A DNA stretch of 44,505 bases, taken from assembly GCA_947073765.1 (NCBI GenBank), contig CAMTMZ010000022.1, positions 1 to 44,505 of the forward strand, written 5' to 3'. This document shows, piece by piece, positions 2,991 to 13,758 of this stretch. The notes under the pieces were generated by a model. That model was not told where the DNA came from. It searched no databases and saw nothing but the letters and a program-made list of their open reading frames with translations. How positions within the stretch are numbered: position 1 is the stretch's first letter; every line of letters starts with the position of its first letter. A program made the translations under genes and the position numbers. This DNA comes from an uncultured Bacillota bacterium (GTDB lineage: Bacteria > Bacillota > Clostridia > Oscillospirales > Oscillospiraceae).

Positions 2991-3219
2991 TCAGTTGAAC
3001 ATATCGACCATCTGAATCAGGTAAACAACATCATCCGCAAAGAAAAAGTACAGACATGGACCCGAACCGTTTTCGTTGGCACAGTACCACAAGTAGTCGT
3101 CGGGATAAGCCCACTGCCAGTTTTTCTCATCGGAGAGGAGGCCGCTTTTTGGGCTGGGACAGAGGATTGTTGATCTCCGTCTCCCCGGCCGACACGGATA
3201 AGGGAGTGGAGAGGGGGGG
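2991..3219 (-). pseudogene. Decayed fourth sensor-like paralog, main fragment
   Basis: On the minus strand, joining 6863-6836 to 3211 and skipping one target-duplication copy restores the start of a fourth member of the sensor-like family. One frame gives STPLSVSAGETEINNPLSQP followed by KKRPPL, clearly related to STPLSGSAREVELRLKNIFS plus GPKKRPPLP of the intact paralogs. The reading frame is already off by one base in the C-run after the MPR codons. After KKRPPL the frame hits a stop. A third frame then gives an intact-looking C-terminal tail (WQWAYPDDYLWYCANENGSG, then PCLYFFFADDVVYLIQMVDM and FN) that ends at the TGA at 2993-2991. The hydrophobic segment and most of the extracellular domain are missing. 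So the gene was damaged by an internal deletion and a frameshift, and also split by the IS4-type element at 3220-6835. Confidence 0.75.
3212..3219. repeat. Target-site duplication, left copy
   Basis: AGGGGGGG directly precedes the left terminal inverted repeat at 3220 and is repeated at 6836-6843 directly after the right one. Confidence 0.8.
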
Positions 3220-3239
3220 CCAATGTCATTAAGTTAAGG
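3220..3239 (+). repeat. Left terminal inverted repeat of the IS4-type element
   Basis: CCAATGTCATTAAGTTAAGG. It matches the complement of 6816-6835 at 19 of 20 positions and abuts the AGGGGGGG target duplication. Confidence 0.8.
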
Positions 3240-3261
3240 CTTCCAAGCGCCCCAAAAAAAG

Positions 3262-3300
3262 CCCACCACCTTCTTACTGAAAAAGGTGGTGGGTATTTTT
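3262..3300. terminator. Bidirectional terminator inside the mobile element
   Basis: An 11-bp stem (3262-3272 with 3283-3293) has a T-rich tail on the plus strand (TATTTTTT) and an A-run at 3254-3260 that gives a U-tract on the minus strand. It lies just downstream of the SLH remnant and probably was its terminator. Confidence 0.75.
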
Positions 3301-3342
3301 TCGGGTCTTACATGCTGTCAAAATGACAAAAATCGTCTGAAT

Positions 3343-3489
3343 TTACTGCCCCATAGCGCGATAGAGGAAGGTGACAATCTGTCCACGGGTACAGGTAGCG
3401 GCGGGAGAGAAGTTGCCGCCGCCTGTTCCGCTGTGATTTCGTTCTCTATCGCCCATGCCACAGCTTGCGCATGGACTGCATTCGTGTAA
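3343..3489 (-). pseudogene. C-terminal fragment of an S-layer-homology (SLH) domain protein
   Basis: On the minus strand the frame ending at the TAA at 3345-3343 encodes GTGGGNFSPAATCTRGQIVT followed by FLYRAMGQ, a textbook SLH-repeat end. Upstream, a second frame gives AVAWAIENEIT, the usual preceding SLH helix; the two frames are separated by a one-base deletion in ACAGCGGAACA. Only about 45 residues remain, with no start codon, and the fragment abuts the 3' end of the cargo gene. It is a remnant of a cell-surface protein caught inside the mobile element. Confidence 0.75.
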
Positions 3490-3512
3490 AAATCAGCAAA
3501 TCCGCAAATATA

Positions 3513-4433
3513 TCACTTTTTGCGATTCGAATACCATAGAAAATGGTCAAACTTTCTACGTCTAAAAGGAATATCGATACTCTTTTGATCTAGGAGTTCT
3601 TCAATGCAGTCATTAAAAGCAAGATAGTTACAAGTAGTCCGCCATTCTCCAATAGCGGACTTTGTAAGTTTGGGTATATAATAAGGCAGGGCATCTTTCA
3701 CTACTCTATCAAAAATAGAGTAGTCGTCTCGTTCATAAATTTCTACATTATGATATGTGCAATATTTGGATGCAAAAGAAAAGAGATTGATTTGCCCATT
3801 ACTTTCGGCAAGTTGACTGACTAATAACGGATCTCCTTGAGAAACCCGAATATCAAAGTCTTGGATACTCAATATCAAATCCACTATTTCAGAAAGGGAT
3901 ATTTTCTTTATATGTGTACTTATGTGGGTGGAATTTGTTAAATCAATGAGTGCAACTTTCATCGCAACCAATTCTCGGTCAACATTCTGGGGAAACCGTT
4001 TTAAAACATCATGTATTAAGGTGAAGTTTGAGCCATAGTCTGAAGTTGCAAGGACTTGTTGATGAACATATTCGATATTTTCTCGTGTAAGGGGCAGATA
4101 ATCTTTTTTGTTGTCAAGATTACGCCCATACGATATTGGTGTACAAGAACTTGATATCATAGATTGTGTTTCTGTTTTCGAACTCTTTTCTTGAGCAACT
4201 TTTATTGCTTTTCTAACATACCAATGAGGTCCTCGTTCTCCAAAGGATTCAATGTTAATTCCATTCAGCGACAAATAGTTTCTCAATAAGGAACGCTGTT
4301 TTCCCTGCGGTATTTCGCCAGTAGAAAGGTCAATCATATAGGGATACTTATTAAGCGGGCCATTTTTATATAGGGCATATTCTTTCCCCTCAATGGTGAT
4401 GACTGTATCTGCGTCTTTATATCTTTCTATCAT
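3513..4433 (-). CDS. Cargo protein of unknown function in the IS element
   Basis: A 306-aa protein that I do not recognise. It is markedly more AT-rich than the host genes and uses AGA/ATA/TTA-type codons that its neighbours avoid, a sign of transfer. There are no transmembrane segments or signal peptide. The N-terminal ~80 residues look like a small separate domain (motif YALYKNGPLNKYPYMIDL). The C-terminal ~100 residues contain NLFSFASKYCTYHN, then YSIFDRVVKDALPYYIP and an aromatic end (FDHFLWYSNR). A similar pattern (SFASKYC..HN followed by Y.IYD..V) occurs, as I recall, in uncharacterised proteins near defence or mobile loci, but that is memory, not a search. The ATG has only a weak ribosome binding site and lies 14 nt after an 18-codon micro-ORF with a strong one, so translational coupling is likely. 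No catalytic motif is evident. Confidence 0.75.
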   Translation of the reverse strand: MIERYKDADTVITIEGKEYALYKNGPLNKYPYMIDLSTGEIPQGKQRSLLRNYLSLNGINIESFGERGPHWYVRKAIKVAQEKSSKTETQSMISSSCTPISYGRNLDNKKDYLPLTRENIEYVHQQVLATSDYGSNFTLIHDVLKRFPQNVDRELVAMKVALIDLTNSTHISTHIKKISLSEIVDLILSIQDFDIRVSQGDPLLVSQLAESNGQINLFSFASKYCTYHNVEIYERDDYSIFDRVVKDALPYYIPKLTKSAIGEWRTTCNYLAFNDCIEELLDQKSIDIPFRRRKFDHFLWYSNRKK

Positions 4434-4447
4434 TTTATTTTACCACT

Positions 4448-4504
4448 TCATTTCAAAAGGCCTCGCCAAAAGCCAATGAAAACGCCCAATAGAAATCTCA
4501 ACAT
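4448..4504 (-). CDS. 18-aa hydrophobic micro-ORF upstream of the cargo gene
   Basis: An ATG at 4504-4502 preceded by GGAGGG (about 7 nt spacing) encodes MLRFLLGVFIGFWRGLLK and stops at 4448, 14 nt before the cargo ATG. It is hydrophobic with two Arg and a C-terminal Lys, like a minimal membrane peptide. It lies directly downstream of a good promoter. It could be a leader peptide that couples translation to the cargo gene, or a small membrane-active peptide. The coding case rests on the ribosome binding site, the promoter and the hydrophobic content. Confidence 0.45.
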   Translation of the reverse strand: MLRFLLGVFIGFWRGLLK

Positions 4505-4526
4505 AAATTATCCCTCCGATAAATTT

Positions 4527-4555
4527 TATATATGTACCCTGTCCCTCCTTGACAA
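4527..4555 (-). promoter_or_regulatory. Promoter of the cargo operon
   Basis: TTGTCA (4555-4550), 17 bp, TATATA (4532-4527) on the minus strand, about 22 nt before the micro-ORF start codon. Confidence 0.6.
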
Positions 4556-4988
4556 AGTCCAAAACTTTCAGATAGCTCTTTTAAATCAATTTTAGCCTAT
4601 CGCGGAAGAAATTGCAATAGCGTTTTCGGGAAAAGTCTGCAAAAACAGACTTTCCATCTTTTTCATTGTCATATCCCGGACTTGTTGATTCTTTCGTGTT
4701 ATATTTTTGATTCTTGCGGCTTAAGGAAATAGCCACCTATTTTTATATCATTTTGTAGACAAGTTGAGAATTTTATTTTCTCTTAACTAAATGCTAGTTT
4801 CTGGAAAATTTTCCCACAGAAAAACAGGGGGGTGCAAAAATAGCTTTTACAACGTATTTTGGACAGGTTGCAGTTTGAGTGCAAGCGTAATTTCAGCGAA
4901 AAAGGAGAAAACCGACCATTTTCTGGTGCATTGACCAGACATGTTGAAATTTTACTGAACCGCAAATCTTAAAAGTGGATTTGCCTGC
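4556..4988. other. AT-rich non-coding stretch between cargo gene and transposase
   Basis: No ORF with a credible ribosome binding site is visible on either strand. It contains a small hairpin (arms 4632-4639 and 4646-4653) and an imperfect inverted repeat (4762-4770 with 4778-4788). It ends at the internal copy of the terminal-repeat core. The remainder, to the transposase stop at 5107, shows nothing recognisable. Confidence 0.5.
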
Positions 4989-5001
4989 CATTAAGATAAG
5001 G
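4989..5001 (+). repeat. Internal copy of the terminal-repeat core
   Basis: CATTAAGATAAGG matches the core of both outer terminal repeats with one change and points the same way as the left end. It is a candidate original left end of the transposase-only IS. Confidence 0.5.
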
Positions 5002-5106
5002 CGGCACATTTTTTTGAAAAATCCCGCGATTTTGGCTCTAAAACCGGCCTTTTCAAAAATAGCGCCACGAAGAAGGGCGGGAGTTCAACCCCCAGCCCCT
5101 CTTTTT

Positions 5107-6390
5107 TTACGCCGCCACGCGATAGGTGAAGCCAACGAAGCCCTTCACTTTCAGTTTGCGCTTGTCTCGCCGTCCCTCCCGGATGGGTACAGTGTATCGG
5201 CTGATTTCTTGAAGTAGCTTCTCACTGTCGGCGCTGTTCGTCCTGAAATACTCCCGACAAAGGGCTACCGCCATCTTGAAGTTGACGCGGTAGGCATAAA
5301 CGCCCTCCGGCGGTTGTTTGACAACTGCTTCCCGCACAATTCTGCTTGTGAAGTTGAACATTGTCAGCGCCGCCCATATCTCCTGCTCTGCGAAAGCGTC
5401 CCGTTTGCCGTGGAGATTCACCAGGCCCAACGTGTATTTCAGGTCACGAAAGCTGGTTTCAATTCCCCAGCGCAGATGATACAGTTCCCGGATGTCCTCT
5501 AATGTGAATGTGCGCGGAAGAGACGTGGCGATTGTCTCAAACTCTCCCGTTTCAAGCTGGAACCGGACAATGCGGATTTTCATTTGATAAGGACTCGGAA
5601 AGTCCCAACGCCCCCGGCGCGTCTTTGCGCCCGGTTTGCTTTTTTTCGGGACTTGCAGAAAGATGTAACGCTTCTCTTTATCCTCCTTCGTCTGGGTTGT
5701 CGTGATGGTAAAACCGATCTCACAATCCAACTCAAACATGGGCAAACGAGCCACTTCCCGCATGGCGGAGTGGTTCTGTTTAATGCGGATTAAAAAGTCC
5801 GTGTTGGGCTTTTCAAGCAGGTGAGCCATCACGTTGTAGCTCTCATATCCACGGTCTGCGATTATAATTGTTTTTTCGGAAAAATGATTCCTCTTTATCA
5901 TCTCAATCAACGCACCGATTTCATCCTTTTGGGGCTCTGGCTGGATGAGCGCGTCGTAAAATATCTTGTTGCACAAATCATAAAGCGGGTTTAGGTGTAG
6001 TTGATTGTAGCCGTTTGGTGCGCTTTCGTTTTGAACGAATGAGGGAGCTTTAGGGTTGCGCGGGATGTTGACGGAAGTTCCATCTACTGCCAACAGGCGA
6101 TAACCACGAAAGTTCCCGCTATCCTCGCAAGAAGCGTTGAATCTCTGGAACACGTCCCGGAATGTCTCCGGGCTGATTTGTGCGCGGCGCTGTGAAATGG
6201 CGGCGGGGGTTACGTCAATGTCTGCCCGATGAAGTTCCTTTGCCAAAGAGCCGCCCTCCGCTCCGATTAGCAGACAGATTACGCCAGCCCTCGACAATTT
6301 GCGATTGCGGGACGGCTGGCCTGCTCTCATCTTTTCAGCCGCTTTCCTGATTGCATAGTTGAGCGTCTGATTTATAAAATTGATATTCAA
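5107..6390 (-). CDS. IS4-family DDE transposase
   Basis: A 427-aa transposase that appears intact. The DDE catalytic residues lie in LLAVDGTSVN (first Asp), IIADRGYES (second Asp) and the block YHLRWGIETSFRDLK, which fits the IS4 signature Y-x2-R-x3-E-x6-K exactly. An N-terminal helical DNA-binding region precedes it. The start is a TTG at 6390-6388, chosen because GGAGG (6403-6399) lies 8 nt upstream and no ATG is available before the conserved N terminus. The gene reads inward from the right end of the element. Expected role: cut-and-paste movement of the unit between the terminal inverted repeats. Confidence 0.93.
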   Translation of the reverse strand: MNINFINQTLNYAIRKAAEKMRAGQPSRNRKLSRAGVICLLIGAEGGSLAKELHRADIDVTPAAISQRRAQISPETFRDVFQRFNASCEDSGNFRGYRLLAVDGTSVNIPRNPKAPSFVQNESAPNGYNQLHLNPLYDLCNKIFYDALIQPEPQKDEIGALIEMIKRNHFSEKTIIIADRGYESYNVMAHLLEKPNTDFLIRIKQNHSAMREVARLPMFELDCEIGFTITTTQTKEDKEKRYIFLQVPKKSKPGAKTRRGRWDFPSPYQMKIRIVRFQLETGEFETIATSLPRTFTLEDIRELYHLRWGIETSFRDLKYTLGLVNLHGKRDAFAEQEIWAALTMFNFTSRIVREAVVKQPPEGVYAYRVNFKMAVALCREYFRTNSADSEKLLQEISRYTVPIREGRRDKRKLKVKGFVGFTYRVAA

Positions 6391-6780
6391 ATTTGTTTCC
6401 TCCGTTGGCTGTACTAGCCGCCGGACGAAAAAAGAACGACAAACGCACGCTCCAAAACATGGGGCATGTCTTTGACGTTCTCGTTCGCTACTAACTATCT
6501 AAAAATGTGTTTATGTGAGGCTATTCAAACATGTAAGCTATAAAAATCAATCAAAAATGGAAAACAAATTCAAAATATCAAACAAAATCAAATTCTGTAA
6601 ACTTAATAAAATGTGGTTATTGTGGTTTATTCAAAAATTTCCATGCGACCGTCCGTCACGACGACTGCGTATAGGGTAGCATATACCGCGCATACGTTCA
6701 ATATTTTTCGGGGTTAGTTTACACTTCGTTTACAATCCCGCTTTAACTTAACGATTTGCCCGGATTTCTGTATGACTGTT
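6391..6780. other. Long AT-rich leader upstream of the transposase
   Basis: About 390 bases between the transposase start and the right-end hairpin. It is AT-rich in the middle (6530-6640) and contains several short symmetric words but no convincing gene. Such regions in IS elements can hold transposase promoters and antisense regulators; I cannot point to a specific one here. Confidence 0.4.
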
Positions 6781-6810
6781 AAGGGGACAAATGCCCCGCA
6801 TTTGCCCCTT
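6781..6810. repeat. Sub-terminal hairpin at the right IS end
   Basis: Arms 6781-6793 and 6799-6810 pair with a single-base bulge. It lies just inside the right terminal inverted repeat and could block read-through transcription into the transposase or serve as a transposase contact site. Confidence 0.5.
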
Positions 6811-6815
6811 TAAGC

Positions 6816-6835
6816 CCTTAGCTTAATGACATTGG
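6816..6835 (-). repeat. Right terminal inverted repeat of the IS4-type element
   Basis: Read on the minus strand as CCAATGTCATTAAGCTAAGG, 19/20 identical to the left end; followed by AGGGGGGG at 6836-6843. Confidence 0.8.
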
Positions 6836-6863
6836 AGGGGGGGCGGGGCATTTTTTGATTCAT
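6836..6863 (-). pseudogene. 5' end of the disrupted fourth sensor-like paralog
   Basis: An ATG at 6863-6861 with an AGGAG site upstream starts MNQKMPRPP, the same opening as the intact paralogs (MKEQMPRTP). The C-run has one base fewer than needed for the paralog frame. The IS element is inserted nine codons in; the rest of the gene is at 2991-3219. Bases 6836-6843 are the right copy of the 8-bp target duplication. Confidence 0.75.
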
Positions 6864-6878
6864 GCTGCGCTCCTTTCG

Positions 6879-8837
6879 TCATGCAGATTCCTTCAGCACA
6901 AGCCGGCTGACGGTATCCTGTTCAAAGAAGAAAATCAGGTCGGCTCCCTGGCCCTGATACCACAGGCAGTCCCCTTCCAGGCCGGGGTAGGGTCCATCCT
7001 TAATCTCCGGGTAGGCGGCGCGCACCTTGGCCCGGCTGTCCCCCACCTTGATCCCCCGGGTGGTGGGCAGGCGGCGGGTGGTGTCCAGGTAAATGCAGAA
7101 CCGGTTGTTCCAGCCGCCGCGGCGGTACTGGGACGTGTAGCGGTCGCCGTATTCGGTCCAGGTGTCGCCGTGCTCCTCGGAGCCCTGGGCGGTGAACACC
7201 CCGTCGTAATTGCCGGGGCCGTAGGCGGTGGGGAAATCGGGGTTTTGCAGATCCCACAGGGCCGCGTCGTAGTCCACCAGCCCGTGGGCGGCGGCACGGG
7301 TCTGCTTTTCGATGTCCTCCACCCCCTCCGCCGGGAGGGCGCAGGCGAGGCGCTGGAAGGTGCGGAAGGAGGACACCTCAAAAAAGAGAAGCTGCTCGGG
7401 CATGGCCTTGCCGTCCTGACGGCGGTAGTATGACAGACTATACGCTCCCATCCAGTAGGGCTCCTCCACGCAGAAGAACCGGGGCTCCAGGGCGGAAATC
7501 ACGCCGTCGGGGTCGTATCCCTCCAGCCAGATCGCGGCCAAATCCAGCGCCTGCCGGGGGGCAGGGACCTGGGTAAAAATGTCCGCCAGCTTGGGCCGGG
7601 CGGTGAGGTAACCCGCGTCGTAGAGGGCTTCCACGGCGTACCAGTTGTAGGGGGACAGCCCGGCCAGCAGCCCCGGCTCCGGGGCGCCCTCCAGGAGGTA
7701 GTCGAAGAAGGTGGTGAGGAAGGTCAGCTCCTCCCCCTCCCGGAGGAACAGCAGGTGGGTTTGGCCGCCCATATACCTGTAATCGGAGCCGCCAGGGTTG
7801 CCGAAGTCCAGGTCCCAGGCGGAGAGGGTCAGGTTTTCCCTGTTCTTCCACTCGCTGCACAGGGAGAGCTGGGAGAAGTCGTTCCACTCCGCCTTCTCCT
7901 CCAGCCTTTGAATGGGCGTCCCGGCGGTGGGCACCCCCTCCCAGTCGGCTTGGGCGATGTAATCCCGGGCCGCGTCCCGCACAGCGGCGGGGACGGGGTC
8001 CACGTTCCGGGCGGTGGTGAGGGGGACCGTCCCCTGGTACTCCCACTGGGGCACGCCCTGCCACGCGGCGCTCATGTTGTTCCACCCCTCAGTACGGCGG
8101 TAGACCTCCACCGCCCCGGGAAGGGGGAGGTATTTGCAGTCGTACTTCTCCTCGTCCCACGCCGAAAGCCGCTGGGGCATGGCCGGGGCGGACATGGGGC
8201 TGGCGGGAATCTGATCCACCACCTCCAGAGTGTTGCCGTTGAAGCGGAAGTGCATAGGGGCGCCGCCGCTCTCCCAGCCCTGCCAGGTGACGGTGTTGGC
8301 ACAGACCAGATGCAGGCCGTCCGCCTCCTCCCAGGTGGAATACACCCCGGCGTCGCCGCCGATGTCGTAAAAGTCCACCGGATTTCCCCCCTGGTCGAAG
8401 GTTCCCAGGAGCAGGTTGTAAAACCCTCCCGTGTGGCCGCTGGCGGCCCAGCCCACCATGAGCAGGTTCAGGTCTTCCCCTGTCACGTTAAGCAGCGGTT
8501 CGCCCAAAGGGTCCTCCGGCAGGTAGTCGTCCCGCTGAGCCACCAGCTTGGGGGTTACCTCCTCCCAGTAGAGCATCCACCGGGCGCTCTCGTCGGCGGG
8601 CTCCACGGCGGAGGAATCGGGGGCGGAGATGTCAGGGGCATTGGACTGTGGCGGTTCCATTGTGTGGCAGGACACCAGATTGCCGCAGAAGATGCACACG
8701 CAGGCCATTAGAATCAGGAGCGGGAGCGGAGGCCGCTTTTTGGGGCCGGAGAAGATATTTTTCAGGCGCAGCTCCACCTCCCTGGCCGAACCGGACAGCG
8801 GGGTGGAAAAGGGGGTGCGGGGCATTTGTTCTTTCAT
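6879..8837 (-). CDS. Membrane-anchored BlaR1-type sensor-like protein, paralog 3
   Basis: A 652-aa protein. Residues 1-39 are a conserved basic segment (PRTPFSTPLSGSAREVEL then RLKNIFSGPKKRPPLP). Residues 40-57 are a hydrophobic helix ending in LVSC, which is either a membrane anchor or a lipobox (Cys57). The remaining ~595 residues are extracytoplasmic, rich in Trp and Tyr, with no domain I can name. The opening module resembles the stretch that in BlaR1 proteins follows the M56 protease (the RIRxIL helix and last transmembrane segment), here present without the protease. It is the third of four such genes after a BlaI/M56 pair, with a good ribosome binding site (AAAGGAG) and a 16-nt gap to the previous stop. 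Probable role: ligand-sensing partner of the M56 protein. That is an inference. Confidence 0.7.
   Translation of the reverse strand: MKEQMPRTPFSTPLSGSAREVELRLKNIFSGPKKRPPLPLLILMACVCIFCGNLVSCHTMEPPQSNAPDISAPDSSAVEPADESARWMLYWEEVTPKLVAQRDDYLPEDPLGEPLLNVTGEDLNLLMVGWAASGHTGGFYNLLLGTFDQGGNPVDFYDIGGDAGVYSTWEEADGLHLVCANTVTWQGWESGGAPMHFRFNGNTLEVVDQIPASPMSAPAMPQRLSAWDEEKYDCKYLPLPGAVEVYRRTEGWNNMSAAWQGVPQWEYQGTVPLTTARNVDPVPAAVRDAARDYIAQADWEGVPTAGTPIQRLEEKAEWNDFSQLSLCSEWKNRENLTLSAWDLDFGNPGGSDYRYMGGQTHLLFLREGEELTFLTTFFDYLLEGAPEPGLLAGLSPYNWYAVEALYDAGYLTARPKLADIFTQVPAPRQALDLAAIWLEGYDPDGVISALEPRFFCVEEPYWMGAYSLSYYRRQDGKAMPEQLLFFEVSSFRTFQRLACALPAEGVEDIEKQTRAAAHGLVDYDAALWDLQNPDFPTAYGPGNYDGVFTAQGSEEHGDTWTEYGDRYTSQYRRGGWNNRFCIYLDTTRRLPTTRGIKVGDSRAKVRAAYPEIKDGPYPGLEGDCLWYQGQGADLIFFFEQDTVSRLVLKESA
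8665..8837 (-). repeat. 173-bp conserved 5' cassette, copy A
   Basis: It covers the start codon to the TGGCA just past the Cys57 codon. By eye it differs from copy B (9746-9918) at only about 7 of 173 positions and is clearly related to copy C (11252-11424), while the genes downstream of the cassettes are unrelated. Confidence 0.8.
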
Positions 8838-8853
8838 GTGAAGCTCCTTTCCA

Positions 8854-9918
8854 TTATGAGAGGCTGTCCGTCAAGAGATCGGCCTGACCCAGGCGGTAAG
8901 CGCCATCCTCATAGACCAGGGGGAAGCAGGCCCGGGCCATGTAGCCCAGGGTGTCGCTGGTGAAGTCGATATCCAGCTCACAGAGGATGTGCCCTTCCGT
9001 GAGGCGGAAACGGACCACGTTTCCCGCCTCCATCCGCCCGGTCAGGCGGCCGCCCAGCTCGGTGACGTCCACCTCCAGGCTGCGGGGGCCGCTTTGCAGC
9101 TCCACCCGGTCCCTCTCCGGACTGAGGGCAATCTCCAGGGGGATTTCCGAGTAGTCGAGGAGAGCGTAGGTCATGGTGTCCAGGTCGAAGATGTACAGGC
9201 TTTCCGTGTAGGCCCCGGTGCCCCAGCCGTCGGTCAGGGCCAGCGCCGCCTCAAGCTGGCCGTCATCATCCAGGTCGTCCACCAGCAGGGGGGGATTGCT
9301 GCCGAAGTGGAGGCTGCCTCCCCAGTACAGGGGGAAGTAGGCTGTCCGCTCCCCCCAGCGCAGAACGATGCCGTCCTCCCACAGATTAGGCGCACTCTCC
9401 AGGTTCAGGTTGATGTCCCGGTAGGTCCCGGGAGGCATTCCGCCGAAGATAAAGTAGACCGTCACGTCAGATTCCTTGTCGTAGGCCACGGGCAAAAGGA
9501 GGTCCTCCCAGAAGTCCCCCCGGTAGGGGCCGGGGTAGAGATCCACCGCCTCCCGGGGCAGCTCCGCCGCCGGGAGGTTCTGAATGAGGGTGGTTTCCTC
9601 CTCGGTGAGAAATTCATAGGGCCTGTCCAACGTGGTTTCGTTGTATTGCAGAAGCTCTGTGTCCAGCTCCACCGGGGTCCACGCCTCGGGCGTCTGTTCC
9701 GGGACAGAGACATCCGGGGGTGCGGGAACGTCCGCCTCCGCCACTTGGCAGGACACCAGATTGCCGCAGAAGACGCACGCGCAGGCCATTAGAATCAGGA
9801 GCGGGAGCGGAGGGCGCTTTTTTGGGCCGGAGAAGATATTTTTCAGGCGCAGCTCCACCTCCCTGGCCGAACCGGACAGCGGGGTGGAAAAGGGGGTGCG
9901 GGGCACGTTTTCTTTCAT
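8854..9918 (-). CDS. Membrane-anchored BlaR1-type sensor-like protein, paralog 2
   Basis: A 354-aa protein with the same first 57 residues as its downstream neighbour (basic segment, hydrophobic helix, LVSC) but an unrelated extracytoplasmic part. That part contains an acidic VDDLDDDGQLEAALALTDGW segment like the calcium-binding loops of FG-GAP/VCBS-type beta-propeller repeats, followed by YIFDLDTM. A Pro-rich linker follows Cys57. The ribosome binding site is AAAGGAG and the gap to the upstream gene is 12 nt. Membrane location is clear; that it senses a ligand for the M56 protease is inferred from the shared module and operon position. A plain lipoprotein with a long cytoplasmic n-region is the alternative. 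Confidence 0.7.
   Translation of the reverse strand: MKENVPRTPFSTPLSGSAREVELRLKNIFSGPKKRPPLPLLILMACACVFCGNLVSCQVAEADVPAPPDVSVPEQTPEAWTPVELDTELLQYNETTLDRPYEFLTEEETTLIQNLPAAELPREAVDLYPGPYRGDFWEDLLLPVAYDKESDVTVYFIFGGMPPGTYRDINLNLESAPNLWEDGIVLRWGERTAYFPLYWGGSLHFGSNPPLLVDDLDDDGQLEAALALTDGWGTGAYTESLYIFDLDTMTYALLDYSEIPLEIALSPERDRVELQSGPRSLEVDVTELGGRLTGRMEAGNVVRFRLTEGHILCELDIDFTSDTLGYMARACFPLVYEDGAYRLGQADLLTDSLS
9746..9918 (-). repeat. 173-bp conserved 5' cassette, copy B
   Basis: The same length as copies A and C, about 96% identical to copy A by eye, including synonymous positions. This points to recent duplication or gene conversion. Confidence 0.8.
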
Positions 9919-9930
9919 GGCGGTCTCCTT

Positions 9931-11424
9931 TCAGGAAATGACCCGTTCGATGGTTTCCAGGTCAAAGCTGTGCCAGACCACATCCACCTTGGTGTCCTGC
10001 TCCTGGTAGAGGATGTTAAAGTCGGCCTCGCTGACCGGCGCGCCGGCATAATACCAGACCAGGTGCTCCCAGTCGCCATTGACCCGCTCCTGTTTTAGGA
10101 GAATCTCGGTCACCCACTGGTCGGGACCGCTGCCCCGCTGGTTGGGGATGAAGCGGGCAAAGCCTGCGCCGAACTCTGCCGCGCTGGAGGAAAATTGGAA
10201 CACGCCGTCCTGCTTCAGCTTTTGAAAGGAGCGGGGAAAGCGGGTGTAGCTGTACACCTGTCCCCCCTCCTGCCAGCGCAGGACCAGAAAGGCCAGCGCC
10301 GGGTCCCCCTCCTCGGTGATCAGCCAGACCACCGCCTCTTCGGTCCCGTCCTGATCCAGGTCCAGGTAGGCGAAGCGGGCGGGCCTGGCGGTGAAATCAG
10401 GGGTGGAGGTCACCGTCTCGGTAACCCGGCCGATGTCCAGAACCAGGCCGGTTTCCGCGTCGGTAAACGTCCGCTCTCCCAGCAGGGTAAAGCGCAGATC
10501 GGCTGCGGACTGGGAGCTGACGGGTGCGGGGGAGTAGCCGTTTTTGGGCTTTTCTCCGGCAAAATACCACTGGTTCCACAGAGGAGGGTCCAGCTGATCG
10601 GTCTCCTCGGCGGGGACCAGGGGGGTGGATAGGCCGTACTGGTCGTAGATTGTGACGGCCCGGTCCTCCCAGATATACAGCTGATCCGCCCCGCTGACCC
10701 CGTCCCGCAGGCTGTCGTCCGCATCGTCTTCCCGTCCGGTGAGGTAGAACACAGGCTGGCCGTCCGCCCGGATGCGGAATCCCTCCAGCGTCAGGTTGTG
10801 GAGGGCCAGCGGAAAACCAAGCTCCTGGGAGCTCAGGTCCAGCCGGGCCTGAACCAGGCCGTCAACCTGCTCCAGCAGCCCCTTTTCGTTCAGGCCCGCC
10901 AGGGCCAGCGCGTCCTGGGTGGACACCACAGTCCCCTCCTTTAAGTCGTAGACCAGGGAGAAGACGTGGCCGGTGTTCAGGTCGGTTTTGAAATAATCCT
11001 CAAAAAACAGCAGATTTAAGTGGCGATCGGTGGTGGAGGGGTAAAACAGGCACTTGTTGTCGCCCGCGATGCTGTGTTGAGCGAAGGCGTACTCCTCACG
11101 CAGGGTGTTGAGGGCGGCGTTGATGGAGTCCACAGCCTCGTTTTCCGTCCCGGCGGGGAGGGCCAGAGCGGGAATCTCAACCAAGTTGTCGTAGCGGTCG
11201 TAATATTGGGTCTCCATGACAATTACGGGGGCTTCAGGCGGCTTGGTGACATGGCAAGACACCAGATTGCCGCAGAAAAGGCACAAAGCGGCGATCAAAA
11301 TAATCAGCGGAAGGGGAGGCCGCTTTTTGGGGCCGGAGAGGATGTTGCGGATGCGCAGCTCCGTCTCCCGGCATGAGTCGGACAGCCGGGTGGAGAAGGG
11401 GGTGCGGGGAATATTATGTTTCAT
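9931..11424 (-). CDS. Membrane-anchored BlaR1-type sensor-like protein, paralog 1 (RsiV-like domain)
   Basis: A 497-aa protein with the shared 57-residue opening (IPRTPFSTRLSDSCRETEL, RIRNILSGPKKRPPLP, hydrophobic helix, LVSC). The first ~220 extracytoplasmic residues resemble the DUF4163/DUF3298 fold of RsiV-type anti-sigma factors: paired strands, an AVDSINAALNTL helix, and the HVFSLVYDLKEGTVVSTQDAL segment. A later FAYLDLDQDGTEEAVVW stretch looks like an FG-GAP-type calcium loop. Its ATG lies inside the last codons of the M56 gene (11-nt overlap, different frame), so it is translationally coupled to the protease and is the best candidate for its sensor partner. RsiV binds lysozyme; whether this one does is unknown. 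Confidence 0.72.
   Translation of the reverse strand: MKHNIPRTPFSTRLSDSCRETELRIRNILSGPKKRPPLPLIILIAALCLFCGNLVSCHVTKPPEAPVIVMETQYYDRYDNLVEIPALALPAGTENEAVDSINAALNTLREEYAFAQHSIAGDNKCLFYPSTTDRHLNLLFFEDYFKTDLNTGHVFSLVYDLKEGTVVSTQDALALAGLNEKGLLEQVDGLVQARLDLSSQELGFPLALHNLTLEGFRIRADGQPVFYLTGREDDADDSLRDGVSGADQLYIWEDRAVTIYDQYGLSTPLVPAEETDQLDPPLWNQWYFAGEKPKNGYSPAPVSSQSAADLRFTLLGERTFTDAETGLVLDIGRVTETVTSTPDFTARPARFAYLDLDQDGTEEAVVWLITEEGDPALAFLVLRWQEGGQVYSYTRFPRSFQKLKQDGVFQFSSSAAEFGAGFARFIPNQRGSGPDQWVTEILLKQERVNGDWEHLVWYYAGAPVSEADFNILYQEQDTKVDVVWHSFDLETIERVIS
11252..11424 (-). repeat. 173-bp conserved 5' cassette, copy C
   Basis: It is collinear with copies A and B with the same boundaries but more diverged. 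It overlaps the 3' end of the M56 gene by 11 nt. Confidence 0.75.
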
Positions 11425-12349
11425 GGTTGGTTCCGTCCTTTTCGCTGTTTTGCAGCCGTGCCACGGCGGTGAGAATGGTCTGACCGTAGGCGGCGTAGTC
11501 CTGGGGAGACAGGCGGCGCAGGGCCTCCTCGTCGCAGGCCAGTTCGGTGTCCCGCTCCACCAGGCGCACCATGTACCACATGAGGGGATTGAACCAGTAA
11601 AGGGCGTTGACCCACATGACCAAGACCTTCAGCGGGATATCACCCCGGCGGTAATGAACGAGCTCGTGAAGCAGGGAAAGGCCCAGCTCCTCTCCGGTGA
11701 TTTTCCCCTGGGGCAGAAGGATGGCGGGGCGGAGCGCGCCGGAGAGCATGGGGACCTTAAGCCCTTGGCACACCAGCAGGCGGGGACGGTGGTGAAGGTG
11801 GAGCTGGTCGCCTAAATGGTTGAAGGCGCTTACTGCGTCCCAGTCGTCCACAGGGGAGGACCACCGGCGCAGATAAGATAGAAAACGCAGGTGGGCCGCG
11901 CCGCTCCAGGCCAGAGTGGCAGCGGCGCCTGTCAGCCACAGGGCTGTGAGCATGAGGGGGAGGTCAACAGACTGTGTCCGCTCCGGCTGGCTGGGTGCGG
12001 AGCCGGCGGGGGCAGGTGGAGTGACGCTGCTGTCCGAGGTGTCGGGCTGGAGCGGACCGCCCTGGGAGCCAGCCGGGGGCGGGGAATCGGGCTCATCCGT
12101 GGGAGCGGGGAGCGGGGCGGGCTGGACGGCGGGGGGATTTGGGAGTGCCATGTGAATGGGAGCCCGGGCCTCCCCCTGAAAAATCAGCGGAAAGGGGACG
12201 GCCAGCCGCAGGCACAGCAGAAGCCAGCCCCAGCACCGCCACTTGGCGCCGTAACGGCCTCGAGTGGATCGGCCCATCCAGGCCAGCACAAGCACGGCGG
12301 CGGAGCCGCCCAGGGTGAGGGCTCCCAGGGTGAGGAGTATTTGATCCAT
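11414..12349 (-). CDS. M56 family (BlaR1/MecR1-type) membrane metalloprotease without sensor domain
   Basis: A 311-aa integral-membrane zinc protease. Hydrophobic segments lie at about 3-25, 41-58, 128-150 and 240-262. A Pro/Ser-rich loop (70-125) separates the second and third. The zinc motif is HELVH (228-232) in LLHELVHYRRGD, followed by ERDTELACDEEAL (265-277) with the further acidic ligand. Typical BlaR1 proteins run to about 585-600 aa with another transmembrane helix and a penicillin-binding or other sensor domain. This one stops about 35 residues after the ACDE motif, and the missing piece reappears as the opening of the next gene. The ATG overlaps the BlaI stop (TGATG). Expected role: on signal, cleave the BlaI-type repressor or trigger its removal, de-repressing the operon. 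The signal need not be a beta-lactam. Confidence 0.85.
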   Translation of the reverse strand: MDQILLTLGALTLGGSAAVLVLAWMGRSTRGRYGAKWRCWGWLLLCLRLAVPFPLIFQGEARAPIHMALPNPPAVQPAPLPAPTDEPDSPPPAGSQGGPLQPDTSDSSVTPPAPAGSAPSQPERTQSVDLPLMLTALWLTGAAATLAWSGAAHLRFLSYLRRWSSPVDDWDAVSAFNHLGDQLHLHHRPRLLVCQGLKVPMLSGALRPAILLPQGKITGEELGLSLLHELVHYRRGDIPLKVLVMWVNALYWFNPLMWYMVRLVERDTELACDEEALRRLSPQDYAAYGQTILTAVARLQNSEKDGTNHET

Positions 12350-12717
12350 CAGCCATGCCCTCCGTTCAGCTGGTCCAGCAGAGCCCGCAGCTCCTCCAGC
12401 TCGCCCCGGCGCATCCCCTCCCGGGCCAGGGCGGCCACAAAGTTCCGGGGAGAGCCGTAGAGCCGGTCCAGTACAGCCCGGCTGTCAAAAGACTGATATT
12501 CCTCCTGGCCCACCAAGGGGGTGTAGAGGTTGCTCCGGCCCTCCCGGCGGACGGCCACAAAGCCCTTATCCGCCAAGCGGGAGAGATAGGTGTTGATGGT
12601 GTTGGAGGCCCAGCCGAAGGGGGAGAGCCTGTCCTCTAACACAGCCCTGGGGGTGTTGGAACCGGTGGCCCAAAGGGCCTTCATGACCTCCAGCTCGGTG
12701 TCGGGAAGCCGCTTCAT
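12349..12717 (-). CDS. BlaI/MecI-type transcriptional repressor
   Basis: A 122-aa winged-helix repressor of the penicillinase-repressor family (PF03965). It has the opening LPDTELEVMKALWATG, the recognition-helix region WASNTINTYLSRLADKGFV and wing RREGRSNLYTP, with a helical C-terminal dimerisation part (FVAALAREGMRRGELEELRALLDQL). Length is normal. It is the first gene of the operon and its stop overlaps the start of the M56 protease gene. It most likely binds the dyad over its own promoter (12738-12759) and represses the operon until the protease inactivates it. The target signal is unknown. The ribosome binding site is weak (AAGTGGA). Confidence 0.88.
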   Translation of the reverse strand: MKRLPDTELEVMKALWATGSNTPRAVLEDRLSPFGWASNTINTYLSRLADKGFVAVRREGRSNLYTPLVGQEEYQSFDSRAVLDRLYGSPRNFVAALAREGMRRGELEELRALLDQLNGGHG

Positions 12718-12737
12718 AGAATCACATCCACTTCAAT

Positions 12738-12759
12738 TGTAGTTAATTGTAATACTACA
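12738..12759. promoter_or_regulatory. Candidate BlaI-type operator
   Basis: TGTAGT (12738-12743) and ACTACA (12754-12759) form an inverted repeat that covers the -10 box of the blaI-like promoter. TACA/TGTA half-sites are usual for BlaI/MecI operators. Two further tandem GTTACAA words (12781-12787 and 12791-12797) lie just upstream of the -35 box. Confidence 0.55.
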
Positions 12760-12780
12760 CTTGTCGTAATTTGCCGTCAA
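12752..12780 (-). promoter_or_regulatory. Promoter of the BlaI/M56/sensor operon
   Basis: TTGACG (12780-12775), 17 bp, TAGTAT (12757-12752) on the minus strand. It is overlapped by the TGTAGT/ACTACA dyad. Confidence 0.6.
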
Positions 12781-12866
12781 GTTACAAATGGTTACAATAT
12801 GGGGACATTTCCGAAGACCTGTACAATTTCTTTTGTCTTCTTAAAAAATACTTCACGGAATTTTCA

Positions 12867-12895
12867 TAGACTTTTTAAATGGACCATGGTAGAAT
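12867..12895 (+). promoter_or_regulatory. Possible promoter for the WecG/TagA gene
   Basis: TAGACT (12867-12872), 17 bp, TAGAAT (12890-12895); the -35 box is weak. It would give a leader of about 100 nt before the TTG start at 13009. Confidence 0.4.
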
Positions 12896-13008
12896 ATCGG
12901 GGAGGAAAACATTGGCTGTCTCTGTTTGAGCGACTGTTCCCCGGGGAATCATCAACTTGGGGGGCAAAACAGAACGGCTGTACGCGCCCGCGGCGCATGG
13001 AGGTTCGA

Positions 13009-13758
13009 TTGAAAAAAGAGGTTTTAGGAATCAGCTTTGACGACCTGACCCGGGAGGAGGCCGCCCAGGCGGGAGCGGCCCTGCTGGAGGAGGACAGGTT
13101 CCACTACGTGGTGACGCCCAATCCGGAATTCATCCTGGCGGCGGAGAGAGACGGGGAGTTTCGCCGGGTGCTTAACGAGGCCGATCTGGTGCTGGCTGAC
13201 GGCATCGGGGTGGTATACTCTGCGAAAATACAGGGTACGCCCCTGAAAGGGCGGGTGCCCGGGATTGAGTTCGCGGCGGATATGCTCGCCTGCCTCAACG
13301 AGCGGGGTGGGCGGCTCTATCTGCTGGGGGCCAAGCCCGGTGTGGCCGAGGAGGCCGGCCGGCGCCTTGTGGAGCGCTACCCCGGCATCATCTTGTGCGG
13401 CACCCAGGACGGCTACTTCAGAGATGAGGAGGCGGTGCTGCTGAAGGTGGCCGCCGCTCGGCCCGACCTGCTGTTTGTCTGCCTAGGGGCCCCGAAACAG
13501 GAGAAGTGGATGGCCCGGTGGGGTAAGCACACCGGGGCCCGGATGGCCATCGGCCTGGGGGGTGTGCTGGATGTGTTCGCAGGGAAGGTGGAGCGGGCCC
13601 CGGAGACGTGGCAGAAACTGGGACTGGAGTGGGCCTACCGGCTGAAAAAGGAGCCGCAGCGGGCCGGACGGATGGTCAGACTTCCCCTGGTGCTGGTGAA
13701 GGCGGCGGGGAAACGGATGAAACGCAGAGGGAGGTCCGCCGGAGGGGCGGCCCTGTAA
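13009..13758 (+). CDS. WecG/TagA/CpsF family glycosyltransferase (GT26)
   Basis: A 249-aa GT26 enzyme that adds N-acetylmannosamine or a related sugar to a lipid-linked sugar, as in teichoic-acid or exopolysaccharide linkage-unit synthesis on the inner membrane face. Motifs are TPNPEFILAAERD, LADGIGVVYSAK, GRVPGIEFAADML, LYLLGAKPGVAEEA, and LLFVCLGAPKQEKWM, the family's most conserved block. I choose the TTG at 13009 because GGAGG (12999-13003) is 5 nt upstream and the conserved sequence starts at KKEVLGISFDDL. An ATG at 12997 in the same frame is the alternative, and the frame stays open further upstream without family similarity. The next gene starts 20 nt downstream. Confidence 0.9.
   Translation: MKKEVLGISFDDLTREEAAQAGAALLEEDRFHYVVTPNPEFILAAERDGEFRRVLNEADLVLADGIGVVYSAKIQGTPLKGRVPGIEFAADMLACLNERGGRLYLLGAKPGVAEEAGRRLVERYPGIILCGTQDGYFRDEEAVLLKVAAARPDLLFVCLGAPKQEKWMARWGKHTGARMAIGLGGVLDVFAGKVERAPETWQKLGLEWAYRLKKEPQRAGRMVRLPLVLVKAAGKRMKRRGRSAGGAAL

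Follow-up and report, generated by a model that had tools for sequence, protein, structure and literature searches.

A BlaR1-type receptor probably divided into one short M56 protease and several membrane-anchored sensor chains in Oscillospiraceae

BlaR1 and MecR1, the receptors that accompany the BlaI and MecI repressors, are single chains. As set out in the Staphylococcus aureus BlaR1 structure paper (PDB 8exp; PMC9834060), an M56 gluzincin with HExxH and ExxxD motifs runs on into an autocleavage loop (residues 271-289) that is cut at Ser283-Phe284, with Leu280 occupying S4 and a bulky hydrophobic residue favored at P1'; Arg294' of the swapped helix alpha-9' and Asp246 complete the active site, and a last helix leads to the outside domain. 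A review (PMC7593790) calls the transfer of the signal across the membrane to the protease unclear, and the 2023 BlaR1 structures propose an answer (PMC9834060). A BlaI-type partner also accompanies the Mycobacterium tuberculosis BlaR1 homologue, which has no equivalent sensor domain within the protein (PMC9834060), and the BlaR1-family protease of the Synechocystis PetP/PetR pair (PMC7896320); the portions of these papers used here name no sensor-chain array for either. We analyze a related locus from an uncultured Bacillota bacterium of the family Oscillospiraceae (GenBank assembly GCA_947073765.1), within positions 1 to 44,505 of contig CAMTMZ010000022.1, a stretch of 44,505 nucleotides that we call the window. 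It encodes a BlaI-type repressor, one short M56 protease, and several genes that begin with a common N-terminal module, and we consider it probable that these represent a BlaR1-type receptor in pieces, in which one protease is common to several membrane-anchored sensor chains.

The likeness to the S. aureus system lies in the BlaI-type repressor, the motifs of the M56 gluzincin, the loop with its arginine, and a last helix before an outside domain, and the difference is that a protease plus 1 to 7 separate chains stands in place of the single chain. The core of the locus in the window is laid out as follows.

12349..12717, minus strand: BlaI-type repressor, 122 amino acids (PF03965, E 8e-26; PDB BlaI/MecI matches at E 7e-10 to 7e-4)
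11414..12349, minus strand: split M56 protease, 311 amino acids (PF05569, E 3.4e-45)
9931..11424, minus strand: putative sensor chain 1, 497 amino acids (module at 11254-11424; predicted RsiV-like domain at residues 64-255, second domain after it)
8854..9918, minus strand: putative sensor chain 2, 354 amino acids (module at 9748-9918; beta-rich ectodomain with no confident match)
6879..8837, minus strand: putative sensor chain 3, 652 amino acids (module at 8667-8837)

The repressor and protease genes share one base, at 12349, an overlap already recorded in the initial annotation, and the protease gene overlaps sensor gene 1 by 11 bases. Tight spacing is general among the loci described below, with medians of 25 nucleotides from protease to first sensor (56 loci) and 20 nucleotides from sensor to sensor (91 pairs). 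The repressor scores 91.1 bits against PF03965, the Penicillinase_R winged-helix family (cut-off, 22.6). We also noted an N-F-V stretch in 37 of 59 split-locus repressors; we did not retain it as a candidate BlaI cleavage site, because a pairwise alignment to MecI places it out of register.

The window protease carries both HELVH and ACDE and ends 37 residues past the latter, close to the approximately 35 first estimated. It keeps E269xxxD273, Tyr288, and Ile292, which by motif and spacing likely correspond to BlaR1 E242, D246, Y261, and I265, and hydropathy reveals no hydrophobic helix beyond the active site. Its score against NCBIfam NF000326 is 105.8 bits, under the curated 400 bits. Among split proteases as a group (n = 61), 60 keep HExxH...ExxxD and 59 keep the helix alpha-8 pattern Tyr-x3-Ile/Val/Leu; a median of 31 residues (range, 25 to 57; n = 60) lies between ExxxD and the C terminus. 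A hydrophobic 19-mer within 120 residues past the active site is present in 44/44 fused proteases versus 0/59 split ones, a contrast that is largely by construction, since "split" is defined by the short tail. Judged by its sequence, the split M56 protein is missing three parts: helix alpha-9, the last transmembrane helix, and, in the autocleavage loop, the site of cleavage.

Counterparts of these parts appear at the start of the downstream genes. The module is a 57-residue N terminus comprising a loop motif (F-S-T-x-L), Arg24, KKRPP, and one helix, and the first 57 residues of the three window sensors are 74-75% identical to the first copy, Cys57 included, in line with the common start that had been proposed for them. 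A profile seeded with the three window copies matches 111 stretches in 37 loci (E 1e-4; window included), the 36 non-window loci having been picked by their protease. The initial proposal that the module resembles the region following M56 in fused receptors held up: the profile matches the segment directly after M56 in 16/16 fused proteins, which were picked by motif pattern from 24 fused loci of the same genus, and the matches begin at the same place each time, 33 to 38 residues past ACDE. Single-stretch E-values are weak (1e-5 to 0.11; best whole-sequence E for reversed control sequences, 0.44), while aligning the module with the fused segment in hhalign gives E 3.6e-6 and a probability of 87.5, and stronger fused matches occur in the same genus (G055, E 7e-10) and in other families. 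A profile built from the M56 domain and this segment of 20 fused proteins in turn matches S. aureus BlaR1 8exp across the joint at E 4.3e-23, with Leu280-Phe284 aligned to the L-[ST]-T-x-[LF] motif and Arg294 to the motif's arginine. On this alignment, the gene break is within the autocleavage loop; neither this, nor the presence of the BlaR1 active-site arginine in the module, nor the lipobox-like LVSC discussed below had been noticed in the initial annotation.

The autocleavage-loop pattern of BlaR1 together with the equivalent of Arg294 is here carried on a separate chain, cleavage itself being predicted at most. Of 171 split modules, 164 have hydrophobic P4 and P1' residues with an arginine ten residues later, as do 21 of 24 fused segments; this conservation is partly built in because the modules were found by profile. 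Seven split modules do not show the motif, and two of these are L129 copies that retain the arginine. Arg24 is invariant across 63 aligned sensors with many ectodomain types, an alignment of 68 representatives plus window sensor 1, less six sequences excluded manually as short, cut, or frame-shifted, of which at least two lack both loop and arginine. A hydrophobic 17-mer is present in 160/162 modules, and the mean net charge is +4.2 ahead of it and -2.5 after Cys57 (117 modules), a pattern that fits an inside N terminus.

In the reading we favor, a scheme of trans-activation with several inputs and an output that we infer, each sensor chain would supply the protease's missing parts through its module and add an ectodomain of its own outside the cell. 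The chain would dock on the protease through helix and loop, and the module arginine would act in trans to complete the active site, the role that Arg294' plays in the domain-swapped dimer of BlaR1. A ligand or damage at any ectodomain could then shift the helix and activate the protease, leading to inactivation of BlaI and induction of the operon, perhaps with further genes. A bolder version, which we put forward tentatively and with some doubt, is a receptor hub in which up to seven interchangeable single-helix receptors would compete for or co-occupy one M56 dimer, with one repressor integrating several envelope signals. Here Arg24 would complete the active site in trans and the loop would be offered as substrate or pseudo-substrate; lysozyme-like or cell-wall ligands may be among the signals, mixed receptor pairs could form, and recombination may spread or homogenize the module DNA cassette, allowing new ectodomains to be plugged in. 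If the receptor is indeed divided in this way, the protease-repressor pathway would be a modular many-input hub, and the cultured Flintibacter muris is among the bacteria that carry such loci. Nature's cut at the autocleavage loop makes a minimal M56-activating unit of approximately 57 residues directly testable, and with many natural ectodomains on one module, the signaling half would be a swappable part. A split multisensor BlaR1 was not found described among the best-ranked matches of broad literature queries, which left preprints and most subscription papers outside.

By the usual definition the locus is not BlaR1, having neither a single chain nor a penicillin-binding sensor. Ectodomains are instead of several types: nine Pfam families were detected in the 63 sensors, with the penicillin-binding sensor domain not among them, and even with a cut-off as loose as E 1 the three window chains match no family of Pfam or NCBIfam. 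The ectodomains had been described as unrelated, which stands for the window taken pairwise (no BLASTP match at E 1e-4 among the three) and fails across loci, where shared domains recur in mosaic combinations; mosaic relatives that hold parts of both connect sensors 1 and 3. One chain from another locus (L037:4182-5243, minus strand) carries on the shared module a LytR-CpsA-Psr domain (5.6e-31), a family of cell-wall polymer attachment enzymes. AlphaFold2 models of window sensors 1 and 2, of low to middling confidence in the module part, place helices at residues 16-30 or 18-29 and at 38-56 or 38-52, followed by folded ectodomains. Residues 64-255 of sensor 1 have a predicted fold of the RsiV type (DUF4163/DUF3298); at the sequence level, neither a Pfam family nor a PDB profile match (E up to 1) supports it. 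RsiV, a lysozyme receptor and anti-sigma factor (5jen; PMC5014341), is alike in this predicted fold and in joining a membrane helix to a cytoplasmic signaling part, and differs in that its partner is a sigma factor rather than an M56 protease and in lacking detectable sequence similarity. Rv1980c, a protein of RsiV-type fold, is reported not to have bound lysozyme (PMC5014341). It is as sensors of signals that we presume the ectodomains to serve.

The arrangement recurs in relatives, a point that the initial annotation had proposed to check. A protease-only search of 61 genomes of the genus gave matches in 58; 37 genomes other than the window's own have a close short M56, and 36 loci were taken, G009 being left out because it is broken across contigs. 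Together with the window, the short protease is present in all 37 loci (the selection criterion) and BlaI in 35, the other two (L067 and L070) beginning inside the protease. Same-strand module genes occur in 36 of the 37 (1 to 7 hits per locus, counting fragments), that is, in 35 of 36 non-window loci; since selection was by protease, finding the module in these is independent evidence. In the exception, L063, the sequence ends ∼200 nucleotides past the protease and a module fragment lies on the opposite strand. The fused version, which the initial annotation asked to look for, is found in 24 loci of the genus (L071-L094, 4-10 kb each), with no separate module gene in them at E 1e-3.

Beyond the genus, a family-wide search with the module profile at E 1e-3 matched 111/400 genomes and 48/106 genera, many of the weaker matches being fused proteins among those inspected. 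In other genera, 23 of 27 stretches (L125-L151) have a short protease with module genes; three (L140, L141, and L147) have no protease before the contig end and L149 is fused. Since module matches guided the choice of those loci, independent evidence there is limited to the short protease. Module genes flank the protease on both sides in L139, L143, L145, and L146. At the order level (E 1e-8), 14 of 394 genomes were matched, 11 from the same family and the other three fused; in the samples examined, the split form was seen only in its own family. Of 18 named loci obtained from a one-pattern scan, 17 have a short M56, or the end of one, followed by module genes, and the other, L170, starts inside the array; Flintibacter muris DSM 110149 (L168) has seven module genes, Colidextribacter sp. 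OB.20 (L176) has four, and Bacterium 1xD42-67 (L182) has five module hits, one of them a fragment.

Fused M56 receptors of the same family (L084, L149, and L164) share with the split loci a BlaI neighbor, a module-like post-M56 sequence and, in some, an LVxC end, and differ in holding module and ectodomain within the protease chain, with no separate sensor genes seen in L084 and L164. Tandem fused receptors with one BlaI (L153, L160, and L161) resemble the arrays in having several receptors per repressor and differ in that every ectodomain has its own protease, two to three complete M56 receptors standing in tandem; L149 and L152-L164 were picked as module-profile matches, except L154 and L157, which came from the protease search. 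Such tandems are a second way of giving one repressor several sensors.

The M56 tree comprises 60 split and 35 fused rows (95 M56 hits, matches under 120 residues dropped, over a short alignment of 143 columns; at least two split proteases, L067 and L070, are cut by contig ends). The quick tree implies two changes between forms, and removal of the long-branch fused row L154, which falls among split rows, leaves one, with a Shimodaira-Hasegawa-like approximate likelihood ratio (SH-aLRT) of 86; a single clade of split proteases is not rejected by the approximately unbiased test (P = 0.639). One ancient split followed by array growth is the simplest reading, though not proven. These data also bear on the possibility that the locus is a fused receptor broken by mutation together with its leftovers. 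The fourth window copy (see below) is indeed broken and some arrays contain fragments, but the sixty split proteases may form one clade with catalytic residues retained, promoter dyads are common to the loci, and genes are tightly spaced; we strongly disfavor decay and regard it as very improbable. What the analysis shows is the gene architecture, homology, conservation, and common promoter dyads, and the initial idea of a single receptor split into a protease and a sensor array finds support.

Identity averages 0.776 between same-locus modules with different ectodomains (146 pairs) and 0.646 between modules with like ectodomains from other loci (696 pairs), and compared by means, same-locus likeness is the greater for 81 of 86 sensors; the "different family" class excludes other-locus pairs of different groups with a residual BLAST hit. 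In the window, the modules of genes 2 and 3 are identical at 164 of 171 bases, and likeness drops to background at the module ends. The module thus behaves as a cassette copied or converted within the genome; added selection for a shared partner may contribute and is inseparable from this here.

In most split loci, the TTGAC...TAGTAT promoter upstream of blaI is overlaid by two inverted half-sites, ACTTCAAnTGTAGT and ACTACAnnTGAAGT or close variants of them; no half-site is found at one mismatch in L127 and L148. The window copies are as follows.

12754..12767, minus strand: putative operator half-site 1, ACGACAAGTGTAGT, upstream of blaI (dyad and spacing common to most split loci)
12730..12743, minus strand: putative operator half-site 2, ACTACAATTGAAGT (exact pattern match)

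Half-site 2 is the sole match in its own genome at up to 1 mismatch. Across nine genomes, the pattern at ≤1 mismatch has 18 matches, of which all ten exact ones and one mismatched one lie at array promoters; the other seven are scattered and fewer than the 27 of a reversed control pattern. Given exact operator copies at array promoters, BlaI most likely controls its own operon.

Several observations weigh against the divided receptor that we favor. Contact between sensor chains and protease is, like their assembly, something we infer. The module profile alone retrieves no BlaR1 from the PDB, the link going through fused relatives, and at the stricter E 1e-3 of a larger search it is found inside only 8 of the 24 fused genus loci. 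A few module genes are without loop or arginine, and P1 is proline in 70/164 modules, so cutting of the loop may not occur and we do not claim it. The nearest single module belongs to the same locus for 54 of 86 sensors and to a like sensor elsewhere for 24, with 8 ties, and same-locus modules are also more alike at four-fold sites (0.734 versus 0.599), a sign that their likeness owes something to gene conversion or recent duplication as well as to any selection for a common partner. In the nine genomes, no target besides the operon was found with a pattern that misses weaker sites, such as window half-site 1. Lastly, a broad pattern built on the lipobox consensus, [LVIA][ASTVI][GAST]C, finds a lipobox-like motif in 150 of the 171 split modules, which permits a lipoprotein reading.

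In that reading, which we judge unlikely, the module genes would be ordinary lipoproteins with an unusually long n-region that form the output of the operon; BlaI and M56 would control them and LspA would remove the whole module. Besides the motif, it draws on the finding that exact operator copies lie solely at the arrays' own promoters in the nine genomes, which leaves room for module proteins as operon output. The n-region is nonetheless also conserved and homologous to the post-M56 segment of fused receptors, and its 37 residues ahead of the module helix depart from the short n-region typical of bacterial lipoproteins. Cys57, which lies in LVSC in the window, is absent from some chains (both in L127, and three ending in LVA), and a lipobox-like Cys also occurs in fused matches (10 of 24), in which it cannot be the sign of an ordinary secreted lipoprotein. 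We note that the fused receptors L149, L164, L086, and L084 have LVAC or LVSC just past the last transmembrane helix, within a polytopic protein. A further alternative, modeled on RsiV, which is cut by signal peptidase after its helix, accepts the chains as sensors and proposes two-step proteolysis, in which cleavage at the lipobox or after the helix would free a helix-loop peptide that acts on M56. LspA cleavage is usually constitutive once a protein is lipidated, and this, with the few chains that lack the Cys, weighs against two-step proteolysis, which we judge quite improbable. The choice between a lipoprotein and a receptor anchored by its helix, the chief mechanistic question here, would turn on whether Cys57 is lipidated and whether LspA cuts there.

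The remaining features of the region are an insertion at the downstream side of the array and a neighboring gene on its other side.

6810..6863, minus strand: truncated start of a fourth sensor gene, interrupted by a transposon (sequence reading)
3220..6835: inserted element of 3.6 kb with 20-nucleotide inverted ends (DDE transposase at 5107-6390, minus strand)
2991..3216, minus strand: decayed module remnant and sensor tail past the insertion (module profile, sequence reading)
12799-13758, plus strand: WecG/TagA glycosyltransferase, divergent from blaI (E 2.8e-58)

Position 6836, taken at first as the array edge, is not one: a fourth sensor copy starts at 6863 and is interrupted by the 3220-6835 element, whose ends (3220-3239 and 6816-6835) are inverted, 20 nucleotides long, and 95% complementary, and a decayed module follows past the insertion at 3112-3216 (one stop; module profile E 1.8e-5, E-values of window copies coming from a profile that includes two of those copies). 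A TagA-like gene is found in 22 of 60 loci, distant in two of those, and in no other-genus locus within the stretch fetched; it adjoins blaI only in the closest relatives, and a functional link of the array to this neighbor was set aside as probably local synteny. The inserted element also encodes a 306-residue open reading frame without a Pfam match. Elsewhere in the same genome there is a lone weak module match, at G000:C4:13368-13478 (E 4.8e-4).

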